Assembly (NCBI GenBank): GCA_944391285.1
Contig: CALXSY010000006.1
Location: 1-64,000, forward strand
DNA from: an uncultured Clostridia bacterium
Lineage (GTDB): Bacteria; Bacillota; Peptococcia; Peptococcales; Peptococcaceae
Direction of reading: 5' to 3'
Length of the DNA stretch: 64,000 nt
Part shown: one piece after another, positions 5,347 through 52,770 of the stretch
How positions within the stretch are numbered: the first letter of the stretch is position 1
Layout: each line of letters opens with the position of its first letter
The notes under the pieces: model-generated
The model's input: the letters and a program-made list of their open reading frames with translations, nothing else
The model's database searches: none
Told to the model about the DNA's origin: nothing
Position numbers and translations under genes: made by a program

Positions 5347-6987
5347 ATGCCTATTACTGATTTTTTAACCAAAAATGCTGATTTTTATCCCAATGATGTT
5401 GCTTTAGTGGAGATCAATCCCCTTTTAGAGGAGCAAAAACATCTCACCTGGCGGGAATACTCTCTGATTATGGCCCGCCCCAATGAATCCTACCGCCGGG
5501 AAATCACCTGGAAGGAGTTCAACCAAAAAGCTAACCGCTTTGCCAACTTTTTATTGAGCCGCGGCATTAAAAAAGGCGACAAAGTCGCCATCTTGCTCAT
5601 GAACTGCCTGGAATGGCTGCCCATTTATTTCGGCATTTTAAAAGCCGGCTGTGTAGTTGTTCCTCTCAATTACCGCTACACCGCCGAGGAAATTAAATAC
5701 TGCCTGGAAAAATCCGATTCCTCTCATTTGATTTTCGGTCCGGAATTTATCGGCCGCGTAGAGGAAATCTGCGAGCGTTTGCCGAATATTAAAACTATGC
5801 TTTATGTGGGTGAGGATTGTCCGACCTTTGCCGAGAGCTATGAGGAGCTGATGAATTACTGCTCTGATTTAAACCCTCAGGTTAAAATCAGCGACAGCGA
5901 TGACGGCGCCATTTATTTCTCCAGCGGTACCACCGGTTTCCCTAAAGCTATTTTGCACGCGCACCAAAGCTTGACCCACGCCGCTCGGGTAGAGCAAAAT
6001 CACCACGGCCAAGCTAAGGACGATGTCTTTTTGTGCATTCCGCCATTATACCACACCGGCGCCAAAATGCACCTTTTAGGCGGCTTGATGGTCGGCGCTA
6101 AAACGGTTCTTTTAAAAGGCACCAAACCCGAATGGATTTTAAAAGCAACCAGCGAAGAGCAATGCACCATTGTTTGGCTCTTGGTTCCTTGGGTACAGGA
6201 TATTTTGGATGCTATTCAGCGCGGTGAAATCGATTTAAGCGAGTATAAATTAGACCAATGGCGTTTAATGCACATCGGCGCTCAGCCGGTTCCGCCCAGC
6301 ATGATCAAGCGCTGGCTGGAAATCTTCCCTCATCATCAGTACGACACCAACTATGGTTTAAGCGAATCCATCGGACCGGGCTGCGTGCATCTGGGAGTTG
6401 AGAATATTCATAAGGTTGGTGCTATCGGCAAAGCCGGCTTCGGCTGGGAAGTCAAAATAGTTGATGCCAATCACAATGACACCGTTCAAGGCGAAGTAGG
6501 CGAATTAGCGGTTCGCGGTCCCGGCGTGATGAAATGCTACTACAATGATCCCGAAGCTACCGCTGAGGTTCTCTCCGCTGACGGCTGGCTTTTCACCGGC
6601 GATATGGCGCAGATGGACGAGGACGGCTTCATCTATTTAGTGGACCGCAAAAAAGATGTCATCATCTCCGGCGGTGAAAATTTATATCCGGTGCAGATTG
6701 AAGATTTCCTGCGCAAACATGATGCTATTAAAGACGTAGCGGTCATCGGCTTGCCCGATGCTCGTTTGGGCGAAATCGCTGCCGCTATTGTGGAAGTTAA
6801 GCAAGGCTACAGCCTAAGCGAGGACGAATTAAACCAATTTTGTCTGGAGCTGCCCCGCTACAAGCGCCCCCGCAAAATTATTTTTGCCGATGTCCCCAGA
6901 AATCCCACCGGCAAAATCGAAAAACCCCTCTTGCGCAAGCGCTATGCCAGTGAACATTTAGTAGCTAAGCAAAATGAACTGATTTAA
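5347..6987 (+). CDS. AMP-forming acyl/aryl-CoA ligase
   Basis: A 546-aa class I adenylate-forming enzyme that would activate a carboxylic acid with ATP and CoA through an acyl-AMP. The P-loop FSSGTTGFPKA lies near residue 190, followed by the family motifs YGLSES, GWLFTGD and the hinge region DRKKDVIISGGEN, ending with the catalytic lysine region NPTGKIEKP. First gene after the T-box, with AGGAGG upstream, and 38 bp before iorA. Because iorAB handles arylpyruvates and arylacetyl-CoAs, an arylacetate such as 4-hydroxyphenylacetate or phenylacetate is the likely substrate (inference); motifs alone do not separate this from medium-chain acyl-CoA ligases. Confidence 0.88.
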   Translation: MPITDFLTKNADFYPNDVALVEINPLLEEQKHLTWREYSLIMARPNESYRREITWKEFNQKANRFANFLLSRGIKKGDKVAILLMNCLEWLPIYFGILKAGCVVVPLNYRYTAEEIKYCLEKSDSSHLIFGPEFIGRVEEICERLPNIKTMLYVGEDCPTFAESYEELMNYCSDLNPQVKISDSDDGAIYFSSGTTGFPKAILHAHQSLTHAARVEQNHHGQAKDDVFLCIPPLYHTGAKMHLLGGLMVGAKTVLLKGTKPEWILKATSEEQCTIVWLLVPWVQDILDAIQRGEIDLSEYKLDQWRLMHIGAQPVPPSMIKRWLEIFPHHQYDTNYGLSESIGPGCVHLGVENIHKVGAIGKAGFGWEVKIVDANHNDTVQGEVGELAVRGPGVMKCYYNDPEATAEVLSADGWLFTGDMAQMDEDGFIYLVDRKKDVIISGGENLYPVQIEDFLRKHDAIKDVAVIGLPDARLGEIAAAIVEVKQGYSLSEDELNQFCLELPRYKRPRKIIFADVPRNPTGKIEKPLLRKRYASEHLVAKQNELI

Positions 6988-7025
6988 CCAACTTTTTTAT
7001 ATGCTTTCAGAAAGGAGTTTTACCT

Positions 7026-8759
7026 ATGAAAAAACTATTGCTGGGCAATGCCGCCATTGCCCAAGGTGCTTATGAAGCCGGCGTAAGAGTCGTTTCCTCC
7101 TATCCCGGCACTCCCAGCACCGAAATCACCGAAAACATTGTCAAATACGACGAAATCTATGTCGAATGGGCACCCAATGAAAAGGTTGCCGCTGAAGTAG
7201 CCATTGGTGCCGCTATCGCCGGAGCCCGCAGTATGTCCTGCATGAAGCACGTCGGTTTAAATGTCATGGCAGACCCGGTCTTTACCGCCAGCTACACCGG
7301 GGTAAACGGCGGCTTGCTCTTTTGTGTAGCCGACGACCCGGGCATGCATTCCTCGCAAAATGAGCAGGACAGCCGGCATTATGCCAAAGCCAGCAAAATC
7401 ATCATGCTGGAGCCCTCCGACAGCGGCGAATGTAAGGAATTTACCAAAATCGCTTACCAATTAAGCGAAGAATTTGACACTCCGGCATTTTTACGTTTAA
7501 CTACCCGTGTCGCTCACTCCCAAAGCTTAGTGGAAATTGAAGAAAGAGCCAACGATGAGTTAAAACCCTACGAAAAAAATCCGGCTAAATACGTCATGAT
7601 GCCCGGCAACGCTATCAAACGCCATGTAGTTGTTGAGGAGCGCATGAAAAAATTGGCAGCCTTTGCCGAGACTACCAATTTAAACACTATTGAAGATAAC
7701 GGCGCCAAAATCGGCGTTATCTCAGCCGGTGACTGCTATGTTTACGCCAAAGAAGCCTTAGGCACCAAGGTTAATTTCTTAAAATTGGGCTTGGTTTTCC
7801 CCTTGCCGGTTAAAACCATTCAAGACTTTGCCCAAGGCTTGGATAAAGTTTATGTTTTAGAAGAGTTAGACCCCTTCATCGAAGAGCATTGCCGCTCGAT
7901 CGGCGTTGAGGTTATCGGCAAAGAGGCTTTCACCTTATTAGGCGAATACTCCCCCAATATGATCAAAAAAGCCATCTTAAATGAAGATGTAGAAATCGCC
8001 GCCAAAGCCGATGAACCATTGCCGGTACGTCCGCCGGTTATGTGCCCCGGCTGTCCGCACCGCGGCAGTTTCTATGTCCTTAAAAAATTAGGCTTAACTG
8101 TCTCCGGTGACATCGGCTGTTATACCTTAGGCGCCGCCGCTCCCTTAAATGCCTTAGACACCACCATTTGCATGGGCGCGTCCATCGGCGGAGCTCTGGG
8201 CATGAGTAAAGCCAGAGGCGAGGAATTTACCAAAAATCTGATTTCCGTCATCGGCGATTCGACCTTTATGCACTCCGGCATCACCGGCTTAGTGGATATG
8301 GTTTACAACAAAGGCACCAACACCGTAATGATTTTGGACAACTCCATCACCGGCATGACCGGTCACCAAGACAACCCCACCACCGGCAAAACTATCCGCG
8401 GTGAAGCTACCAAGCAGGTGGATTTGGAATTGTTGTGCAAAGCTGTCGGCGTAGAGCATGTGCGCATTGTTGACCCCTTCCAGGTTGATGAGTTAGAAAA
8501 AGCTATCAAAGAGGAAGTCAATCGTCCTGAGCCTTCGGTTATCATTTCCCAAAGACCCTGCGCCCTTTTAAAGACGGTTAAATATACCGGACACGCTGTT
8601 ATCACCGATAAATGCCGCAAATGCCGCAAATGTATGCAAATCGGCTGCCCGGCATTGTCCAGCGACGAAAACGGCATCCATGTTGATTTGAACCAATGCA
8701 ACGGCTGCGGCTTGTGTGTTAATGTCTGCCCGTTTGGGGCTATTGTAAAGGAGGGCTAA
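7026..8759 (+). CDS. iorA: Indolepyruvate:ferredoxin oxidoreductase, alpha subunit
   Basis: The large subunit of the thiamine-diphosphate enzyme that interconverts arylpyruvate plus CoA with arylacetyl-CoA, CO2 and reduced ferredoxin. The 577 aa start with the pyrimidine-binding domain (SSYPGTPSTEI near residue 20), have the TPP-binding half (CPGCPHRGSFYVLKK near 340; GDIGCYTLG; GDSTFMHSGI) and end with a two-cluster ferredoxin module (CRKCRKCMQIGCP and CNGCGLCVNVCP). Full length, with all cofactor motifs. It sits 2 bp from iorB, and SD AAAGGAG precedes the ATG. Confidence 0.96.
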   Translation: MKKLLLGNAAIAQGAYEAGVRVVSSYPGTPSTEITENIVKYDEIYVEWAPNEKVAAEVAIGAAIAGARSMSCMKHVGLNVMADPVFTASYTGVNGGLLFCVADDPGMHSSQNEQDSRHYAKASKIIMLEPSDSGECKEFTKIAYQLSEEFDTPAFLRLTTRVAHSQSLVEIEERANDELKPYEKNPAKYVMMPGNAIKRHVVVEERMKKLAAFAETTNLNTIEDNGAKIGVISAGDCYVYAKEALGTKVNFLKLGLVFPLPVKTIQDFAQGLDKVYVLEELDPFIEEHCRSIGVEVIGKEAFTLLGEYSPNMIKKAILNEDVEIAAKADEPLPVRPPVMCPGCPHRGSFYVLKKLGLTVSGDIGCYTLGAAAPLNALDTTICMGASIGGALGMSKARGEEFTKNLISVIGDSTFMHSGITGLVDMVYNKGTNTVMILDNSITGMTGHQDNPTTGKTIRGEATKQVDLELLCKAVGVEHVRIVDPFQVDELEKAIKEEVNRPEPSVIISQRPCALLKTVKYTGHAVITDKCRKCRKCMQIGCPALSSDENGIHVDLNQCNGCGLCVNVCPFGAIVKEG

Positions 8760-43561: not shown

Positions 43562-44005
43562 TCAGCCTTTTTTCTTTATATTATTGCGGATTTGCTCTAA
43601 AACTTTCATAAATGTCGCTATATCTTCTTCGCTTATGCCTTCAACCACGCTGCGCTCAAATTCTTCAACTACCGGATCTAAGCTTTCATGCATTTTAATC
43701 GCTTTGTCGGTCAAAATAAGCTTTTTTAATCTGGCGTCATGCTCAACGCTCTCTTTGGTGATATAGCCTTTTTTCTCCAAAGCCTGCAGCATAATAGTCG
43801 CGGTCGAGCGGCGCACGGAAAAGCGCTCCTCGATATCTCTCTGAAAAATATCCTCTCCCTTTTCGATACTCTTGTAGTAAATAAAATCGATCACTACTCC
43901 CTGAATACCGGTTAAATCTCCTCCTATCACCTTATCGACCTCAGCTTCTATATAGCGGCGCAAGCAATGGTGAGTTTTTTTAATTTCAATGCTTGGTTTC
44001 TTCAT
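43562..44005 (-). CDS. MarR-family transcriptional regulator
   Basis: A 147-aa winged-helix regulator with the MarR core RDIEERFSVRRSTATIMLQALEKKGYITKES (about 60-92). It is the first gene of the operon with the two exporter halves, and a palindrome overlaps its own transcription start, so it probably represses the operon and is relieved by an exported compound. Confidence 0.92.
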   Translation of the reverse strand: MKKPSIEIKKTHHCLRRYIEAEVDKVIGGDLTGIQGVVIDFIYYKSIEKGEDIFQRDIEERFSVRRSTATIMLQALEKKGYITKESVEHDARLKKLILTDKAIKMHESLDPVVEEFERSVVEGISEEDIATFMKVLEQIRNNIKKKG

Positions 44006-44040: not shown

Positions 44041-44068
44041 ATTATATCACTTTTCTTTGCTTTGTCAA
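44041..44068 (-). promoter_or_regulatory. sigma-A promoter of the marR-ABC operon
   Basis: TTGACA (44068-44063) and TATAAT (44046-44041) on the minus strand with a 16-bp spacer. Confidence 0.8.
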
Positions 44069-44148: not shown

Positions 44149-44187
44149 AAAAAGGCTCTGATTTAAAAAAATCAGAGCCTTTTTTTA
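44149..44187. terminator. Terminator of the hrcA-dnaJ operon
   Basis: AAAGGCTCTGATTT (44151-44164) and AAATCAGAGCC (44169-44179) with flanking A- and T-runs; it overlaps the dnaJ stop codon region and can act in both directions. Confidence 0.85.
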
Positions 44188-45360
44188 TTCATCCATCCAA
44201 TCCTTTATTTTATCGAAAAACTTCTTGCCTTCTTTGGGATTTTTTTCACTGCGGGTTTCTTTGGTGCTTTCCTTATCTTTATTTACCGAAACATCGCCAA
44301 AGGTTTCACCCAGCTTGCGGAATAATTCTTTTTGCTCGGCAGAAAGGTTTTTCGGCGTTACGATACGCACAATTACATATTGATCGCCTTTGTTGTAGGT
44401 GTTGATGCTCTTGACGCCTTTGCCTTTGATACGGAACTTAGCGCCGTTTTGCACTCCCGGCGGAATAGTAAGTTTGACTTTGCCTTCCAAAGTCGGGATT
44501 TGAATATCCGCACCTAAGGCTGCCTGGGCAAAATTGATTTCCTGCTCCATGTAAATATCGTTTTCATCCCGCTCGAAAATGGGGTGATTGCGCACGGAGA
44601 TGTAAATATATAAATCTCCCTTGCCGCCGCCCTGCTCGCCGGCTTCGCCTTCGCCGCTCATGCGCAGGCGAGAACCATTGTCCACACCGGCAGGGATTTT
44701 GACCTTAAGCTCGGTTTTAACCCGCTTGCGTCCGGTGCCGCCGCAATCCGGGCAAGGGTCTTTGATAACAGTACCTTTGCCTCCGCACTCCGGACAGGTT
44801 TTAACGGATTGGAACTGCCCGAAAGGTGTTTTCTGTGTAGTGGTAATCTGCCCGCGACCGCCGCAGCGAGGGCAAGTGACGGGGCTTGAACCTTCCTTAG
44901 CACCGCTGCCGTGGCAAGTTTTGCAGGTCTCCCAGCGGGAAACGGTAATGTTTTTTTCGCAGCCGAAAATGGCTTCTTCAAAATCGATTACCAAATCATA
45001 GCGCATATCCGCGCCCCGTTTAGGACCTCTCTGCGCGCCGCCGCCTGCTGCGCCGCCGAAGAACATATCAAAGATATCGCCCATATCGCCAAAGCCGCTG
45101 AATCCGCCGCCTGCTCCTCCGCCGAATCCGCCGCCTGCCCCGGCATGACCAAACTGGTCATACTGGGCACGTTTCTGCGGGTCGGACAAATTTTCATAGG
45201 CTTCGTTAATCTCTTTAAATTTTTCCTCTGCTTCTTTATTGCCGGGGTTGACATCCGGATGATACTGCCGTGCCAGTTTGCGGTAGGCTTTTTTTATTTC
45301 ATCATCACTAGCTGTTTTTTCTACCCCCAGCACTTCATAGTAATCACGTTTGTCAGCCAT
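44185..45360 (-). CDS. dnaJ: Chaperone protein DnaJ
   Basis: Type I J-protein that stimulates DnaK. The 391 aa have the J domain with HPD (YHPDVNPG, residue 33 region), a G/F-rich linker ([17 protein letters not shown]), four CxxCxGxG zinc motifs between about 148 and 215 ([32 protein letters not shown]) and the C-terminal substrate-binding domain. Its ATG overlaps the dnaK stop by one base (TAATG). Confidence 0.97.
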
Positions 45361-47195
45361 TATTTCTCATCCTTAACTTCGGTATACTCTGCATCATAAA
45401 CGCCGTCTTCCTGAGGATTGCCCATGTTTTGCGCACCTGCCTGTGCTTGTTGAGCCTGCTGAGCAGCAGCATACATTTTTTCGGTAATTTTATATAAAGC
45501 GTTGGTTAAAGTTTCAGATTTAGTTTTTAATTCTTCGCTGGAAGCATTGTTATCCAAGGCAGCTTTTAAATCATCTTTAGCCTTTTCAACCTCTGCTTTG
45601 TCAGCGGCATCAATCTTATCACCGGCATCAGCCAAAGTTTTTTCTACCTGGAAGACCAAAGAATCAGCGTTATTTCTGATGTCTACCTCTTCTTTACGTT
45701 TCTTGTCAGCTTCGGCATTCATCTCAGCGTCTTTAATCATACGATCGATTTCCTCATCGGATAAACCGCTGCTGGATTTGATAGTGATGCGCTGTTCTTT
45801 GCCGGTGCCTAAATCTTTGGCGGAAACATTAACGATACCGTTGGCATCGATATCAAATTTAACCTCGATTTGCGGTACTCCACGGGGAGCCGGCGGAATA
45901 TCCATCAAAGTGAAGCGACCCAATGTTTTGTTGTACTGAGCCATTTCACGCTCGCCCTGCAAAACGTGAATATCGGTAGATGTTTGGTTATTAGCAGCAG
46001 TAGTAAAGATTTGGCTGCGGCTGACCGGAATAGTAGTATTTCTTTCAACGATTTTGGTAAATACTCCGCCCAAGGTTTCGATACCTAAGGAAAGCGGAGT
46101 AACGTCTAACAAAACGACGTCTTTAACTTCACCAACCAAAACACCGCCTTGGATAGCGGCACCGATAGCTACGCACTCATCGGGGTTGATGCCTTTGAAT
46201 GGCTCTTTACCGATTAAGTTTTTAATAGCGTTTTGGACAGCCGGAATACGGGTAGAACCGCCGACTAAGATTACTTTGTCGATATCTTTAGCGGTCAAGC
46301 CGGCATCCTGCATAGCTTGGCGGGTTGGTCCAATGGTTTTTTCGACCAAATCAGCGGTCAGTTCATCAAATTTTGCTCTGCTCAAGGTTAAATCCAAATG
46401 CTGCGGTCCGTTTTCATTCATGGTGATAAAGGGCAGATTGATATTGGAAGTAGCTACATTGGAAAGCTCGTGTTTAGCTTTTTCAGCAGCTTCTTTCAAA
46501 CGCTGCATAGCTGTTTTATCACCGGAAAGATCGATACCGGTTTGTTTTTTAAATTCAATAATCATCCAATCAATGATTTTCTCATCGAAATCATCGCCGC
46601 CCAAACGGTTATTACCGCTGGTAGCTCTAACTTCAAAGATACCGTCGCCTAATTCCAGGATGGATACGTCAAATGTACCGCCGCCTAAGTCAAAGACCAA
46701 GATAGTGTGGTCTTCGCCTTTATCGATACCATAAGCCAAAGCAGCGGCAGTAGGCTCGTTGATAATACGCATTACGTTTAATCCGGCAATTTTACCGGCG
46801 TCTTTAGTAGCTTGACGCTGGCTATCGGTGAAGTAAGCCGGTACAGTGATAACTGCATCATGTACTTCTTCGCCCAAATAGCTTTCCGCATCAGCTTTTA
46901 ATTTTTGCAAAATCATCGCAGAGATTTCCTGCGGTGTGTATTCTTTGCCTGCCAAATTTACTTTGTAATTGGTGCCCATATGGCGTTTAATAGACATAAC
47001 TGTGTTGTCGCTGTTGGTGATAGCCTGACGTTTTGCTACCTGACCGACCAATCTTTCACCGCTTTTAGAAATACCTACTACGGAAGGAGTAGTACGGTTG
47101 CCTTCGCTGTTAGTAATAACAACCGGTTCGCCGCCTTCCATTACTGCTACGCAAGAGTTTGTTGTACCTAAGTCAATACCTATTACTTTTCCCAT
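45360..47195 (-). CDS. dnaK: Chaperone protein DnaK (Hsp70)
   Basis: A 611-aa Hsp70 with the N-terminal ATPase domain ([13 protein letters not shown] at the start, [13 protein letters not shown] near 165, [10 protein letters not shown] near 310), the hydrophobic linker [15 protein letters not shown] near 360, and a substrate-binding domain with an alanine-rich lid. It works with DnaJ and GrpE encoded on either side. SD AAGGAGG precedes the start. Confidence 0.98.
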
Positions 47196-47261: not shown

Positions 47262-47804
47262 CTATTTGGCAGATACTTTACACATTGTAGGGCGAATAAC
47301 CTTATCTTTAAAGGTATATCCTTTTTGCAGTTCCTCAATAACTGTATCTTCCTCTACCTCATCGGTAGGAACAGTCATGATTGCTTCGTGTTTTTTCGGG
47401 TCAAAGGGCTCACCCACCGCTTGGATAGTCGCCAAACCTTCTTTATTTAGGCACTCCAAGAACTGAGTATAAACCATTTCCATGCCTTTTAAATAGCCTT
47501 TGATTTGCTCGTTTAATTCAGCAGCCGCCAAAGCCCGTTCAAAATTATCCACTACCGGCAAAAGCCTGGTAAACATATTGGCTAAAGTATAATCAGCCAG
47601 CTCGCTTTTTTCCTGAGTGGTGCGGCGGCGGTAATTGTCAAAATCCGCTACCAAACGGATGTAGCGCTGGTTTAATTCGTCCAGCTGAGCTTGCAATTCG
47701 CCGCAGGCTGTTTTTTCTTCTGCTTCTTGACTCACTTCCTCGGTCAAATTTTCCTCTATAATGTTTTCCTCGATGGTAGCCTCATTGTTGATTTCGCTTG
47801 CCAT
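47262..47804 (-). CDS. grpE: Nucleotide exchange factor GrpE
   Basis: A 180-aa GrpE: acidic glutamate-rich N-terminus, coiled-coil dimer helix (LDELNQRYIRLVADFDNYRRRT, about 45-65) and a C-terminal beta domain (LQKGYTFKDKVIRPTMCKVS). ATG 47804 has AAAGGAG 8 nt upstream, so the GTG ORF start 9 bp earlier is rejected. It lies between the chaperonin gene and dnaK. Confidence 0.96.
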   Translation of the reverse strand: MASEINNEATIEENIIEENLTEEVSQEAEEKTACGELQAQLDELNQRYIRLVADFDNYRRRTTQEKSELADYTLANMFTRLLPVVDNFERALAAAELNEQIKGYLKGMEMVYTQFLECLNKEGLATIQAVGEPFDPKKHEAIMTVPTDEVEEDTVIEELQKGYTFKDKVIRPTMCKVSAK

Positions 47805-47818
47805 TGGTTTCACTCCTT

Positions 47819-49357
47819 TTATTTATTAAAAACCTCTTCTTTCTTTTGGTATTCTTTCTTTTTAATGATAATATTAATTCGCAAGATAGCGCAGGCAGCT
47901 TCCACAGCTGTTTTCAAGGCATGAATCTTGACGTAATAAGGATCCAGGATGCCTAAAGCATGCATATCAGCGATTTGACCGCTTTCACAGTCCAAAGACA
48001 AATAGTGATTTGCCTGCTGCTCTTGAGCTTGCAGGACATCGCCGATTTTTTCCAAAGGATTAAAGCCGGCATTTTTCACAATCTGCATAAAAGGCTTTTG
48101 CAAGGCTGCTGCGACTGCATCCAGACCATAGCAGCTCATGCCGGTTAATTCATCCCGGCGTTTTTGCAAGCGCTGTGCCACCGCCAGCTCGCTGGCGCCG
48201 CCGCCGGCAACCAAACCATACTTCACGGCCGCCTGCAAGGCTGAGGCAGCATCTTGAGCAATGCGCTCCCGCTCGCCTACCACCTCGGCTGTAGCCGCGG
48301 TAATTATAACCGTAGCTCGTGGCTCTCCGCCGCCGCCGATTAGCTTGCAAAAGGACAGCTTCTCGTCATCAACTACCTCGCTCAAAGTGCCCAAATATTT
48401 TTTTATCTCACTTGCCTCTTTCTTTAAGCCGGTGCGTTTGATGGTATACGCTCCGCAGTGTTTCGCCGCCTGCTCTAATTCTTTATGAGGTATGCGGCTG
48501 ATTGCCATAATCCCGGCTTCACTTAAAATTTCTGCCGCCTCATCATTGATTCCCCGATCCACCAAGACCAGCTTGGCGCCGCTGGAAATGATTTTTTGCA
48601 AGTTTGAGCGAAATTCTTTTTTCAAACTCATATATTCCTGAAAGCCGCTTTCGGTGCTTAAGGCTTTGGCATCAACTTCCTCGCTGTCTAAAGCATCATC
48701 TATGACCAAAACTTTGATTTCGCCCTTTAAATGCTCCGGCATTTGCTTGTCGTGGCGGTTTTTGCTCAAAATCACGCCGTCAAAGACCTCACCTTGAGCG
48801 CCTTGCACTCCTTTAATGCAGCCGGAAAAATCAAACTGCTCATCAAAAAGTTTTTCTCTGCCCACCTTTTGGGCAGCTTCAGTAAGTAAATCTGCTATAT
48901 CAGCATATTCCCGAGCGGCGATAAATGCGATTTTGTGCATCGTATCCCGCTCGAAATTCCAAGGAATTTTTTCTTTTTGCCATTCTTCCTCGGCCATCAC
49001 TGCGGCTTGATTGATGCCTTTGATGACTTGGGCAACAGGTACGCCTTTATTAATCTCCTCGATGCCCTTTAAGATCATCTCGCCCGCTAAAAGAGTAGTG
49101 GTTGTCGTGCCGTCTCCGGTGGCTTCCTGCTGAGAGCGAACGGCATTGATCAGCATTTTAGCAACCGGGTGATTAACCTCCATCATCTCTAAAATAGTCA
49201 TGCCGTCATTGGTAATGGTAACCGAGCCAAAGGGGTCTAGCAACATAGTATCCAAACCCTTAGGACCGATGGTGCTTTCCACCGCCTGCATCAAAGCTTT
49301 GATAGCTTGAGCATTATTCTCCAAAAGCTGATAGCGACTGTCCTTTTCTTCATTCAT
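47819..49357 (-). CDS. Archaeal-type (group III) chaperonin in the dnaK operon
   Basis: A 512-aa Cpn60 of thermosome/CCT-like rather than GroEL type. The N-terminus has ESTIGPKGLDTMLLDPFG and SVTITNDGMTILEMMEVNHPVAKML, and the ATP-binding QEATGDGTTTTTLLAGE lies near 83-98. The C-terminal region has GLVAGGGASELAVAQ near 405. It ends without the GGM tail of GroEL. Such bacterial group III chaperonins, first studied in Carboxydothermus, sit in the hsp70 operon and need no GroES. Its ATG overlaps hrcA by 8 nt, and SD GGAGG is inside hrcA. Expression is thus HrcA-controlled. Confidence 0.93.
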   Translation of the reverse strand: MNEEKDSRYQLLENNAQAIKALMQAVESTIGPKGLDTMLLDPFGSVTITNDGMTILEMMEVNHPVAKMLINAVRSQQEATGDGTTTTTLLAGEMILKGIEEINKGVPVAQVIKGINQAAVMAEEEWQKEKIPWNFERDTMHKIAFIAAREYADIADLLTEAAQKVGREKLFDEQFDFSGCIKGVQGAQGEVFDGVILSKNRHDKQMPEHLKGEIKVLVIDDALDSEEVDAKALSTESGFQEYMSLKKEFRSNLQKIISSGAKLVLVDRGINDEAAEILSEAGIMAISRIPHKELEQAAKHCGAYTIKRTGLKKEASEIKKYLGTLSEVVDDEKLSFCKLIGGGGEPRATVIITAATAEVVGERERIAQDAASALQAAVKYGLVAGGGASELAVAQRLQKRRDELTGMSCYGLDAVAAALQKPFMQIVKNAGFNPLEKIGDVLQAQEQQANHYLSLDCESGQIADMHALGILDPYYVKIHALKTAVEAACAILRINIIIKKKEYQKKEEVFNK

Positions 49358-50384
49358 CGCTCTCGCCTCCGTTCAAGTCCTTCAAAAGCACATCTAAAAC
49401 GGCCATCGAGTTGGAATAATCCATGCGCTTAGGTCCCAAAAGCCCTACCTTACCGATTTCCTTGCCGTTGTTTTTGTAGGATGCCACGATAATGCTGCAA
49501 TCCTGTAAATCGGGAATATCGTGCTCTGTGCCGATTTTAACGCTGATTTCGTTAATGTTATTATTATTGAGGATCTTATTGACCACCTCTTTATTTTCCA
49601 AGGTCATCAAAATATTATGCACCTTGCCTACATCCTGAAACTCCGGCTGGGTCAGCATATTTAAGCCGCCCTTGTAATAAATTTTTTCCTCTGAATTATT
49701 GTTTTTATGCAAAATCCCTGCCAGCATTCCCAAGGCACTGTCTACGACCTGCTTTTGGCGCTGGAGCTGAGAAAAGATGTTTTCCAAAACATTTTTTTGC
49801 CAGCCGTCGACAGACAAGCCTTTTAAATGCATATTGAGCATCTGGCTGACTAACTCCAAATCCTCTTTGCCAAACTGAGGCGGAATTTGAATAAAGCGAT
49901 TTTCTATTTTATCATCGTCAGTAACGATAACCATCAAAGCTCTTCCTGCTTCTAACGGCAAAAGCTGCAAAAGCTGCAAGCTATGATCTGCTTGCTGTTC
50001 ATTAATCAGCATCATCGGCGTATAATGAGTTGTCGTGCTCAAGATATCCAAAATATTGTTGACCGTTTCTTCTACTTCTGTAGTCTTTTTTTTAATGGAC
50101 TCTTGGATATAATCCCGCGCCTCTTTTTTTATTTGATCATGCTGCATGAGATAATCAACATAATAGCGATATCCTTTATCGGAAGGGATTCTGCCGGCGG
50201 AAGTATGCGGCTGAACGATTAATCCCATTTCCTCCAAATCCGCCATCTCATTGCGAATAGTGGCGGGACTGACACCCAAATTGTATTTTTTGGAGATAGT
50301 GCGTGAACCTACCGGCTCGGCAGTTTGGATATAATCCAAGACCACAGCTTCCAATATTTTTTCTTTACGGCTATCCATATCCAT
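49350..50384 (-). CDS. hrcA: Heat-inducible transcription repressor HrcA
   Basis: A 344-aa repressor that binds CIRCE and links heat shock to the dnaK operon. Its winged-helix N-terminus has YIQTAEPVGSRTISKKYNLGVSPATIRNEMADLEEMGL and the C-terminal GAF-like part ends with GLLGPKRMDYSN. ATG 50384 is chosen: GAGAGGAG lies 8 nt upstream; the earlier in-frame ATG at 50402 has no such site. First gene of the operon. Confidence 0.96.
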   Translation of the reverse strand: MDMDSRKEKILEAVVLDYIQTAEPVGSRTISKKYNLGVSPATIRNEMADLEEMGLIVQPHTSAGRIPSDKGYRYYVDYLMQHDQIKKEARDYIQESIKKKTTEVEETVNNILDILSTTTHYTPMMLINEQQADHSLQLLQLLPLEAGRALMVIVTDDDKIENRFIQIPPQFGKEDLELVSQMLNMHLKGLSVDGWQKNVLENIFSQLQRQKQVVDSALGMLAGILHKNNNSEEKIYYKGGLNMLTQPEFQDVGKVHNILMTLENKEVVNKILNNNNINEISVKIGTEHDIPDLQDCSIIVASYKNNGKEIGKVGLLGPKRMDYSNSMAVLDVLLKDLNGGESDE

Positions 50385-50414
50385 AACTGCTGCTCCTCTC
50401 ATTCTTTCAATTTA

Positions 50415-50441
50415 TTAGCACTCAACAACCTCGAGTGCTAA
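50415..50441. promoter_or_regulatory. CIRCE operator
   Basis: TTAGCACTC (50415-50423), 9-bp spacer, GAGTGCTAA (50433-50441): a perfect CIRCE. It lies between the -10 box and hrcA. A further half-site TAGCACTC (50453-50460) lies inside the promoter spacer. Confidence 0.97.
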
Positions 50442-50448
50442 TATAATA

Positions 50449-50477
50449 AAGATAGCACTCTTACAGCAAATTGTCAA
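50449..50477 (-). promoter_or_regulatory. Promoter of the hrcA-chaperonin-grpE-dnaK-dnaJ operon
   Basis: TTGACA (50477-50472), 17 bp, TATCTT (50454-50449) on the minus strand, with CIRCE immediately downstream at the expected start. Confidence 0.8.
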
Positions 50478-51078: not shown

Positions 51079-52770
51079 ATGTCAGATTTAAAAGTAGTTG
51101 TCATCGGCGGTGTTGCCTGTGGTCCTAAAGCGGCTGCCCGTTTAAAACGCTGCAACCCCCATGCTCAAGTTACCTTGATTGAAAAAGGTCACGATATTTC
51201 TTACGGCGGTTGCGGTTTGCCTTATTTTGTTGGCTCTACCGTCAAAGAATTAAAGGATTTAATGACTACCTCTTGGGAAGCAGTCCGCACCCCGGAGTTT
51301 ATGAAGGAAACTAAAGATATTGATACGCTCTTAGGCTGGGAAGCTACCAAAATTGACCGTGAGGCTAAAACTGTCGAAGTTAAAGATTTGCACTCCGACG
51401 AAGTAAGAGTTTTGCCTTATGATAAATTGGTCATCGCTACCGGCTCTGATAACTTTAAACCACCTATTGCCAATATTGATGCTAAAGGCGTATTCGGCAT
51501 GAAAACCCCTGATGATGCTTTGGCTATGCAAAGCTATATCAAAGAACACGGCGTGGAAAAGGCTGTTGTTATCGGCGCCGGCTTAATCGGCATGGAATGT
51601 GCCGAGGCTTATTCCGATTGGGGCGTTGAAGTAACTGTTATCGAAATGCAATCCTGGATTTTCCCACAAATGCTTGATAAAGAAATGGCTGCTGTTCTCC
51701 AAAACTATTTAGAAAGCGAAGACATGAATTTCATGCTCGAAACCAAAGTTGAAGCTTTCGAAGTTGATGACGAAGGCAAGGTTTGCGCTGTTGTTACTGA
51801 CAAAGGCACTGTCGAAGCGCAAATGGTTTTGGTAGCAGCCGGCGTGCGTCCGGTTGTTAAATTGGCTAAAGACTGCGGCTTAGAAGTCAGCAAAGCAATC
51901 ATCGTCAATGAATACTGCCAGACTTCTGACCCGGATATCTATGCCGGCGGCGACTGTGTCATGGTTAAAAATCTTGTTTCCGGCGAGCTGATGTATGCTC
52001 CGATGGGCTCTACCGCCAACAAGCAAGGTCGTGTTATCGGTACCAATATTGCTAACGGCAATGTTGAAACCCTCCCCGGCGTAGTCGGTACCTCTATCGT
52101 TAAAATGTTTGACTGGAGTGCCGGCAAGGTTGGTTTGGGCGAAAGAGACTGCCAGCGTTTAGGCATTGAGTACGCCACCTGCATTGTTCCCGGTCCGGAT
52201 ATTACCCATTTCATGCCCGGCAAGAAAATCATTATGACTCGTCTGTTAGCCGAAAAAGCTACCGGCAAAATTTTAGGTGTCCAAATCGTTGGTCCCGGCA
52301 GGCTTGACAAACGCATTGACACCATGGCTGTAGCTATCACCATGGGTGTTACCGCTGATCAGCTCTCCAAGATGGACTTGGCTTATGCTCCGCCGTTCAG
52401 CTCCGCTGTTGACAATCTCTTAGTTGCCGGCAATGTTATGAAAAACACCTTAGACGGTATGGCTCACAGCATTCGTTATTACGATGTTTTGGAAAAATTG
52501 GATTCCGACGATGTAGTATTCGTTGACTTGCGTACCGCTCACGAAAGAGCACAAAAAACTCTGCCCGCTAAACATCAAATCCATATTCCTATCGAGGAAT
52601 TGCGCGCCAGAGCCAACGAAGTACCGAAAGACAAAGAAGCTATCGTCTTCTGTATCTTCAGTACCCGTGGATTTGAAGGTCAGCTGATCTTAGAGCAAGC
52701 CGGACATCCTAATGTTAAATTTATCCAAGGCGGCATCCAGTTCTGGCCCTTTGATAAAGACGCCAAATAA
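51079..52770 (+). CDS. CoA-disulfide reductase-like FAD oxidoreductase with C-terminal rhodanese domain
   Basis: A 563-aa flavoprotein. FAD motif VVVIGGVACGPKAAARL, single redox cysteine in SYGGCGLPYFVG (about residue 45) as in CoA-disulfide reductases and NADH oxidases, NAD(P)H motif VVIGAGLIGMECAE near 162, second FAD motif DIYAGGDCVMV near 290, and a rhodanese domain from about 465 with candidate active-site cysteine in IVFCIFSTRGFEG. Such fusions reduce CoA-disulfide, CoA-persulfide or sulfur species. Fur-box control suggests a link to iron or oxidative stress. SD AAAGGAG precedes the ATG. Confidence 0.9.
   Translation: MSDLKVVVIGGVACGPKAAARLKRCNPHAQVTLIEKGHDISYGGCGLPYFVGSTVKELKDLMTTSWEAVRTPEFMKETKDIDTLLGWEATKIDREAKTVEVKDLHSDEVRVLPYDKLVIATGSDNFKPPIANIDAKGVFGMKTPDDALAMQSYIKEHGVEKAVVIGAGLIGMECAEAYSDWGVEVTVIEMQSWIFPQMLDKEMAAVLQNYLESEDMNFMLETKVEAFEVDDEGKVCAVVTDKGTVEAQMVLVAAGVRPVVKLAKDCGLEVSKAIIVNEYCQTSDPDIYAGGDCVMVKNLVSGELMYAPMGSTANKQGRVIGTNIANGNVETLPGVVGTSIVKMFDWSAGKVGLGERDCQRLGIEYATCIVPGPDITHFMPGKKIIMTRLLAEKATGKILGVQIVGPGRLDKRIDTMAVAITMGVTADQLSKMDLAYAPPFSSAVDNLLVAGNVMKNTLDGMAHSIRYYDVLEKLDSDDVVFVDLRTAHERAQKTLPAKHQIHIPIEELRARANEVPKDKEAIVFCIFSTRGFEGQLILEQAGHPNVKFIQGGIQFWPFDKDAK

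Follow-up and report, generated by a model that had tools for sequence, protein, structure and literature searches.

The protein of 512 amino acids that is encoded on the minus strand at 47819-49357 of the window (the whole 64,000-nucleotide stretch of DNA that we analyzed) is a genuine group III chaperonin, which we will call Cpn. We are highly confident that Cpn is functional and that its gene, as the second in an HrcA-repressed operon, provides a second folding chamber beside GroEL/GroES. The presence of a group III chaperonin in the dnaK operon is an arrangement that has already been published, and chaperonins of this kind are already known. Techtmann and Robb reportedly were the first to find, in 2010, that Hsp70 operons of bacteria can contain archaeal-like chaperonins.

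Identity of the chaperonin

Cpn belongs to the Cpn60_TCP1 family (344.6 bits). Using phmmer, its best natural match in the PDB is Ch-CPN from Carboxydothermus hydrogenoformans (5x9u, 390 bits), and the best natural archaeal thermosome scores 213 bits. In a maximum-likelihood tree with 54 rows, the group III proteins form one clade (support 94/96) that includes Cpn, and groups I and II are separate, with support of 100/100 each. Within group III, Cpn lies in a 100/100 clade with members of its own family. The eight thermosomes that were gathered are not enough to resolve where group III falls with respect to group II. Also, because Ch-CPN is a long branch, its exact place inside group III is unsure. 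The original prediction had proposed a group III identity and called for a phylogeny; the protein falls in the group III clade, outside the 100/100 clade of GroEL, and the match to Ch-CPN, the hallmark residues, the missing loop, and the predicted fold all agree with this placement.

We took the hallmark features of group III from An et al. 2017 (PMC5635000) and scored them on one alignment. The nucleotide-sensing segment has 21 residues in all 32 group III rows versus 27 in all 8 group II rows, and Cpn lacks the six-residue nucleotide-sensing loop. The gamma-phosphate arginine (R155 in Ch-CPN and R149 in Cpn) is found in 32/32 group III rows and in 0/22 of the others. More broadly, the catalytic residues D51, R149, and D369 of Cpn align with D56, R155, and D373 of Ch-CPN, and the hydrophobic residues at the tip of the lid (L233, F239, Y242, and F249) align with L237, F243, Y246, and F253. 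The AlphaFold model of Cpn (pLDDT of 86.3) is most similar to 5x9v (TM score of 0.88) and 5x9u, which are crystal structures of group III chaperonins. Besides these features, Ch-CPN (5x9u/5x9v; PMC5635000) shares with Cpn a gene location within the Hsp70 operon. On the other hand, the two proteins are 42% identical, and the organism in the window is most closely related to Peptococcaceae MAGs from animal guts, not to thermophiles from hot springs.

Two other group III chaperonins, from loci L065 and L128 (one of which is from Candidatus Formimonas warabiya), have an alanine instead of the catalytic aspartate of the TNDG motif (Asp56 of Ch-CPN), giving TNAG. These two proteins may hydrolyze ATP slowly or not at all.

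Could Cpn be an ordinary or divergent GroEL that just happens to look like a thermosome? Both have the Cpn60_TCP1 fold, the aspartates of the ATP site, and GDGTTT, which the original prediction had listed as a thermosome-type motif. Because the GroEL from the same genome also contains GDGTTT, the motif does not discriminate, and we rejected it as a marker for the group. Against the GroEL reading, Cpn scores 147.7 bits with the GroEL equivalog model, whose cut-off is 582.1; it lacks the GGM tail, as the original prediction had noted; and it has a built-in lid, with about 20 extra residues relative to GroEL. GroEL has no such lid and works with GroES, and a proper GroEL with its GroES is encoded at another locus in the same genome. 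The tree and the lid rule out a GroEL identity, and we give it next to no chance.

An archaeal (group II) thermosome that was transferred recently is also very improbable. Thermosomes share the built-in lid and the overall fold of the subunit with Cpn, and the best NCBIfam model for Cpn is indeed the thermosome (289 bits). However, this score is far under the model's cut-off of 671; the loop that is present in 8/8 archaeal rows is missing from Cpn; the lid segment of thermosomes is about four residues longer; and Cpn is not in the thermosomes' 100/100 clade but is nested among Bacillota proteins with a common operon slot. This rules out archaeal transfer as a recent event. An ancient transfer, at the origin of group III, is a separate matter. 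The original prediction considered it probable, and it is one of two published hypotheses: An et al. 2017 (PMC5635000) favored an ancestral relic, and a 2025 study in Mol Biol Evol (PMC12696368) favored transfer.

PDB entry 9rwq, which is titled Ancestral Group II Chaperonin, scores 532 bits against Cpn. In sequence it is much nearer to group III than to any other group, so the entry may in fact be the ancestor of group III from that same paper.

Operon layout and control

Open reading frames and curated models agree that hrcA, cpn, grpE, dnaK, and dnaJ form a single run on the minus strand, from 50402 to 44185, as the original prediction had described. The first gene, hrcA (49350-50402), encodes the heat-inducible transcription repressor (TIGR00331, 330.5 bits, cut-off 197.2), and it overlaps cpn by 8 bases. 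After cpn come grpE, the nucleotide exchange factor (47262-47813; PF01025, 172 bits), dnaK, or Hsp70 (45360-47195; PF00012, 835 bits, and the NCBIfam DnaK equivalog), and dnaJ, or Hsp40 (44185-45360; TIGR02349, 482 bits, cut-off 377), with no gap between dnaK and dnaJ. The true start of grpE is likely the ATG at 47804, which is preceded by the ribosome-binding site AAGGAG; this would put 14 bases between cpn and grpE.

A sigma-70 type promoter, TTGACA-17-TATCTT, lies at 50449-50477 on the minus strand, with 10 of 12 consensus matches and a TG before the second hexamer. It is directly upstream of a CIRCE operator for HrcA at 50415-50441, which is the perfect sequence TTAGCACTC-N9-GAGTGCTAA; this was the one match in a search that allowed up to three mismatches (chance expectation of 0.01). 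Two features expected of an HrcA/CIRCE regulon are thus present here: a promoter with a perfect CIRCE, and an hrcA gene that is intact. Thus the gene order, the operator, and the hrcA equivalog bear out the proposal that the chaperonin sits in an HrcA/CIRCE-controlled dnaK operon.

Each of cpn, grpE, and dnaK is preceded by a ribosome-binding site. The stop codon of dnaJ is directly followed by a probable bidirectional terminator (44149-44184), a hairpin with a 16-bp stem and a run of T on either strand. No minus-strand terminator as strong as this hairpin was found inside the run from hrcA to dnaJ. Given the promoter, the CIRCE, the ribosome-binding sites, the terminator after dnaJ, and the lack of a comparable one inside, the genes from hrcA to dnaJ are very likely co-transcribed.

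Just downstream of dnaJ, a promoter with the full consensus (TTGACA-16-TATAAT, 44041-44068 on the minus strand) precedes a MarR-family regulator (43562-44005, minus strand). On the other side of the operon, 51079-52770 encodes a pyridine-nucleotide disulphide oxidoreductase with a rhodanese-like part at its C terminus. A similar-looking protein is encoded at L005:10457-12103, near GroEL2; both of these assignments were made by eye.

Chaperonins of the genome and of its relatives

The genome (1.70 Mb) encodes three chaperonins. The original prediction had suggested that the group III protein might coexist with GroEL/ES and called for a search of the rest of the genome, and groES-groEL is indeed found on contig 14, where it is preceded by a perfect CIRCE of its own. 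The third chaperonin is a divergent GroEL of 525 amino acids from contig 4, without a GGM tail; neither a CIRCE nor groES was found beside it. Its gene (L005:7222-8799, minus strand, corresponding to C4:59233-60735) encodes a fast-evolving paralog that groups, with 100/100 support, with a protein from a second genome of the family and is nested among the family's GroELs; a relative is at L206:5783-7393. A third perfect CIRCE (L037:6525-6551, on contig C25) precedes a gene similar to htpG, for Hsp90 (6578-8482), which suggests that HrcA controls htpG in this organism. The predicted HrcA regulon therefore comprises three operons: the dnaK operon, groESL, and htpG.

Group III chaperonins had been described as rare, and this does not hold, at least in the protein's own lineage. 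We found them in 23 of 31 good genomes from the class, with one copy each and with hrcA adjoining cpn in every carrier, and in 122 of 399 genomes in a sample from across the phylum. Using two strict peptide patterns, we scanned GTDB genomes and confirmed 359 relatives of the chaperonin, some of which could be other chaperonins. We read the best 80 of the 359, and these were all from organisms with Bacillota names, including Pelotomaculum, Desulforamulus, Heliobacterium, Sporomusa, and Tepidanaerobacter, or from unclassified Clostridia or Firmicutes MAGs.

The operon is conserved as well. In a set of 95 related loci, genes of the dnaK operon come after cpn and, where the contig reaches that far, hrcA comes before it; almost all of these loci have a perfect CIRCE. 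The complete order hrcA-cpn-grpE-dnaK-dnaJ is found in 79 of these 95 loci, and most of the others are cut by the ends of contigs. In kin that lack cpn, hrcA is followed directly by grpE, so the position of cpn is fixed, and genomes differ in whether it is occupied. The distances for HrcA, Cpn, and DnaK are correlated (r = 0.68-0.86; in Mantel tests, 0 of 999 permutations were as high), as would be expected for an operon that is inherited jointly.

Almost all of the carriers in the phylum sample (121/122) also contain GroES. We looked for genomes with group III but without GroEL. In the class, G019 seems to lack both GroEL and GroES, and in the phylum sample, GroES was not found in G323. Both are fragmented MAGs, and a search of G019 (run without a positive control) did not find the gene that flanks groESL in its kin either, so a true loss and a gap in the assembly are equally likely.

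The closest relatives of Cpn are from Peptococcaceae MAGs from guts. Three of these (L054, L055, and L057) have the same operon order and a perfect CIRCE, and the proteins from L054 and L055 (genomes G002 and G006) are in the 100/100 clade with Cpn, yet the proteins from all three are only 53-56% identical to it, and Cpn is on a longer branch (0.68). Among 78 loci, a set that was chosen for likeness to Cpn, Cpn is the most divergent chaperonin, while the HrcA and DnaK from the same locus rank 7th and 9th. In one genome of the same family that is 98% complete, cpn is cleanly missing between hrcA and grpE. Because of this loss and the divergence of Cpn, cpn may be under weaker selection here than in other lineages. 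All of this would also fit a gene that is decaying in a host-associated lineage and that, although still expressed, has lost its importance for folding. We consider decay to be unlikely: the reading frame is full-length with a good ribosome-binding site and coupling within the operon, all of the catalytic and lid-tip residues are kept, and the architecture is conserved at 54-56% identity to family members. Since the catalytic and lid residues are intact, we read the divergence of Cpn as faster evolution, rather than decay.

In four relatives, a short open reading frame (84-93 amino acids) between cpn and dnaJ matches only subdomain IIB of DnaK (L064:6613-6891, L095:6637-6891, L108:1696-1953, and L117:6551-6832). 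These operons, all outside of the window, have no full dnaK and no recognizable grpE next to cpn; dnaK is found at a different locus in these genomes, and grpE adjoins it where the contig is readable. The mini-proteins from L064 and L095 are 81% identical to each other, and L064 is about 35% identical to those from L108 and L117. A model of the mini-protein fits subdomain IIB of DnaK at 0.7 Å, which is not independent evidence because the input alignment included one DnaK fragment. When we searched viral contigs for the mini-protein, there were no matches. We speculate, quite tentatively, that group III chaperonins might be physically coupled to Hsp70, that the content of the operon might reflect this coupling, and that the mini-protein might be an adaptor or decoy for GrpE, DnaJ, or Cpn; we would not bet on this.

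Proposed role and significance

With the identity of the gene, the layout of the operon, its operator, the intact catalytic and lid residues, and the coexistence with groESL in hand, we propose the following role for Cpn. Its gene would be transcribed second in the operon that HrcA represses. Control of this kind, by HrcA and GroEL, is established in Bacillus. With GroEL taken up by unfolded protein, HrcA would no longer hold on, so that under heat or other folding stress it would release CIRCE and Cpn would rise along with the Hsp70 system. Cpn is presumably a double ring of eight-membered rings with a built-in lid, which would close upon ATP binding and without GroES. This part of the proposal is based on homology to Ch-CPN, which has no GroES, closes upon ATP binding, and shows little cooperativity (PMC5635000). 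Also, expression of a group III chaperonin gives E. coli protection from lethal heat (PMC5220055).

Kept beside the CIRCE-controlled GroEL/GroES, Cpn would act as a second folding chamber. To our knowledge, bacteria lack prefoldin, so Cpn probably takes its clients from DnaK/DnaJ. A hand-over from DnaK to group III chaperonins is also a published speculation (PMC5635000; PMC5220055).

Most of the carriers of group III chaperonins described previously are from extreme environments (An et al. 2017, PMC5635000). The organism in the window is probably from an animal gut, as its kin within the family include a Peptococcaceae MAG from goat cecum. The carriers of group III include gut lineages and not organisms from hot springs alone. 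Across much of the Bacillota, the HrcA heat-shock operon includes the archaeal-like chaperonin as a regular member, and this chaperonin is nearly always found beside GroEL/ES. Families in which cpn is present in some members and absent from others are natural material for asking what a group III chaperonin adds to GroEL/ES.
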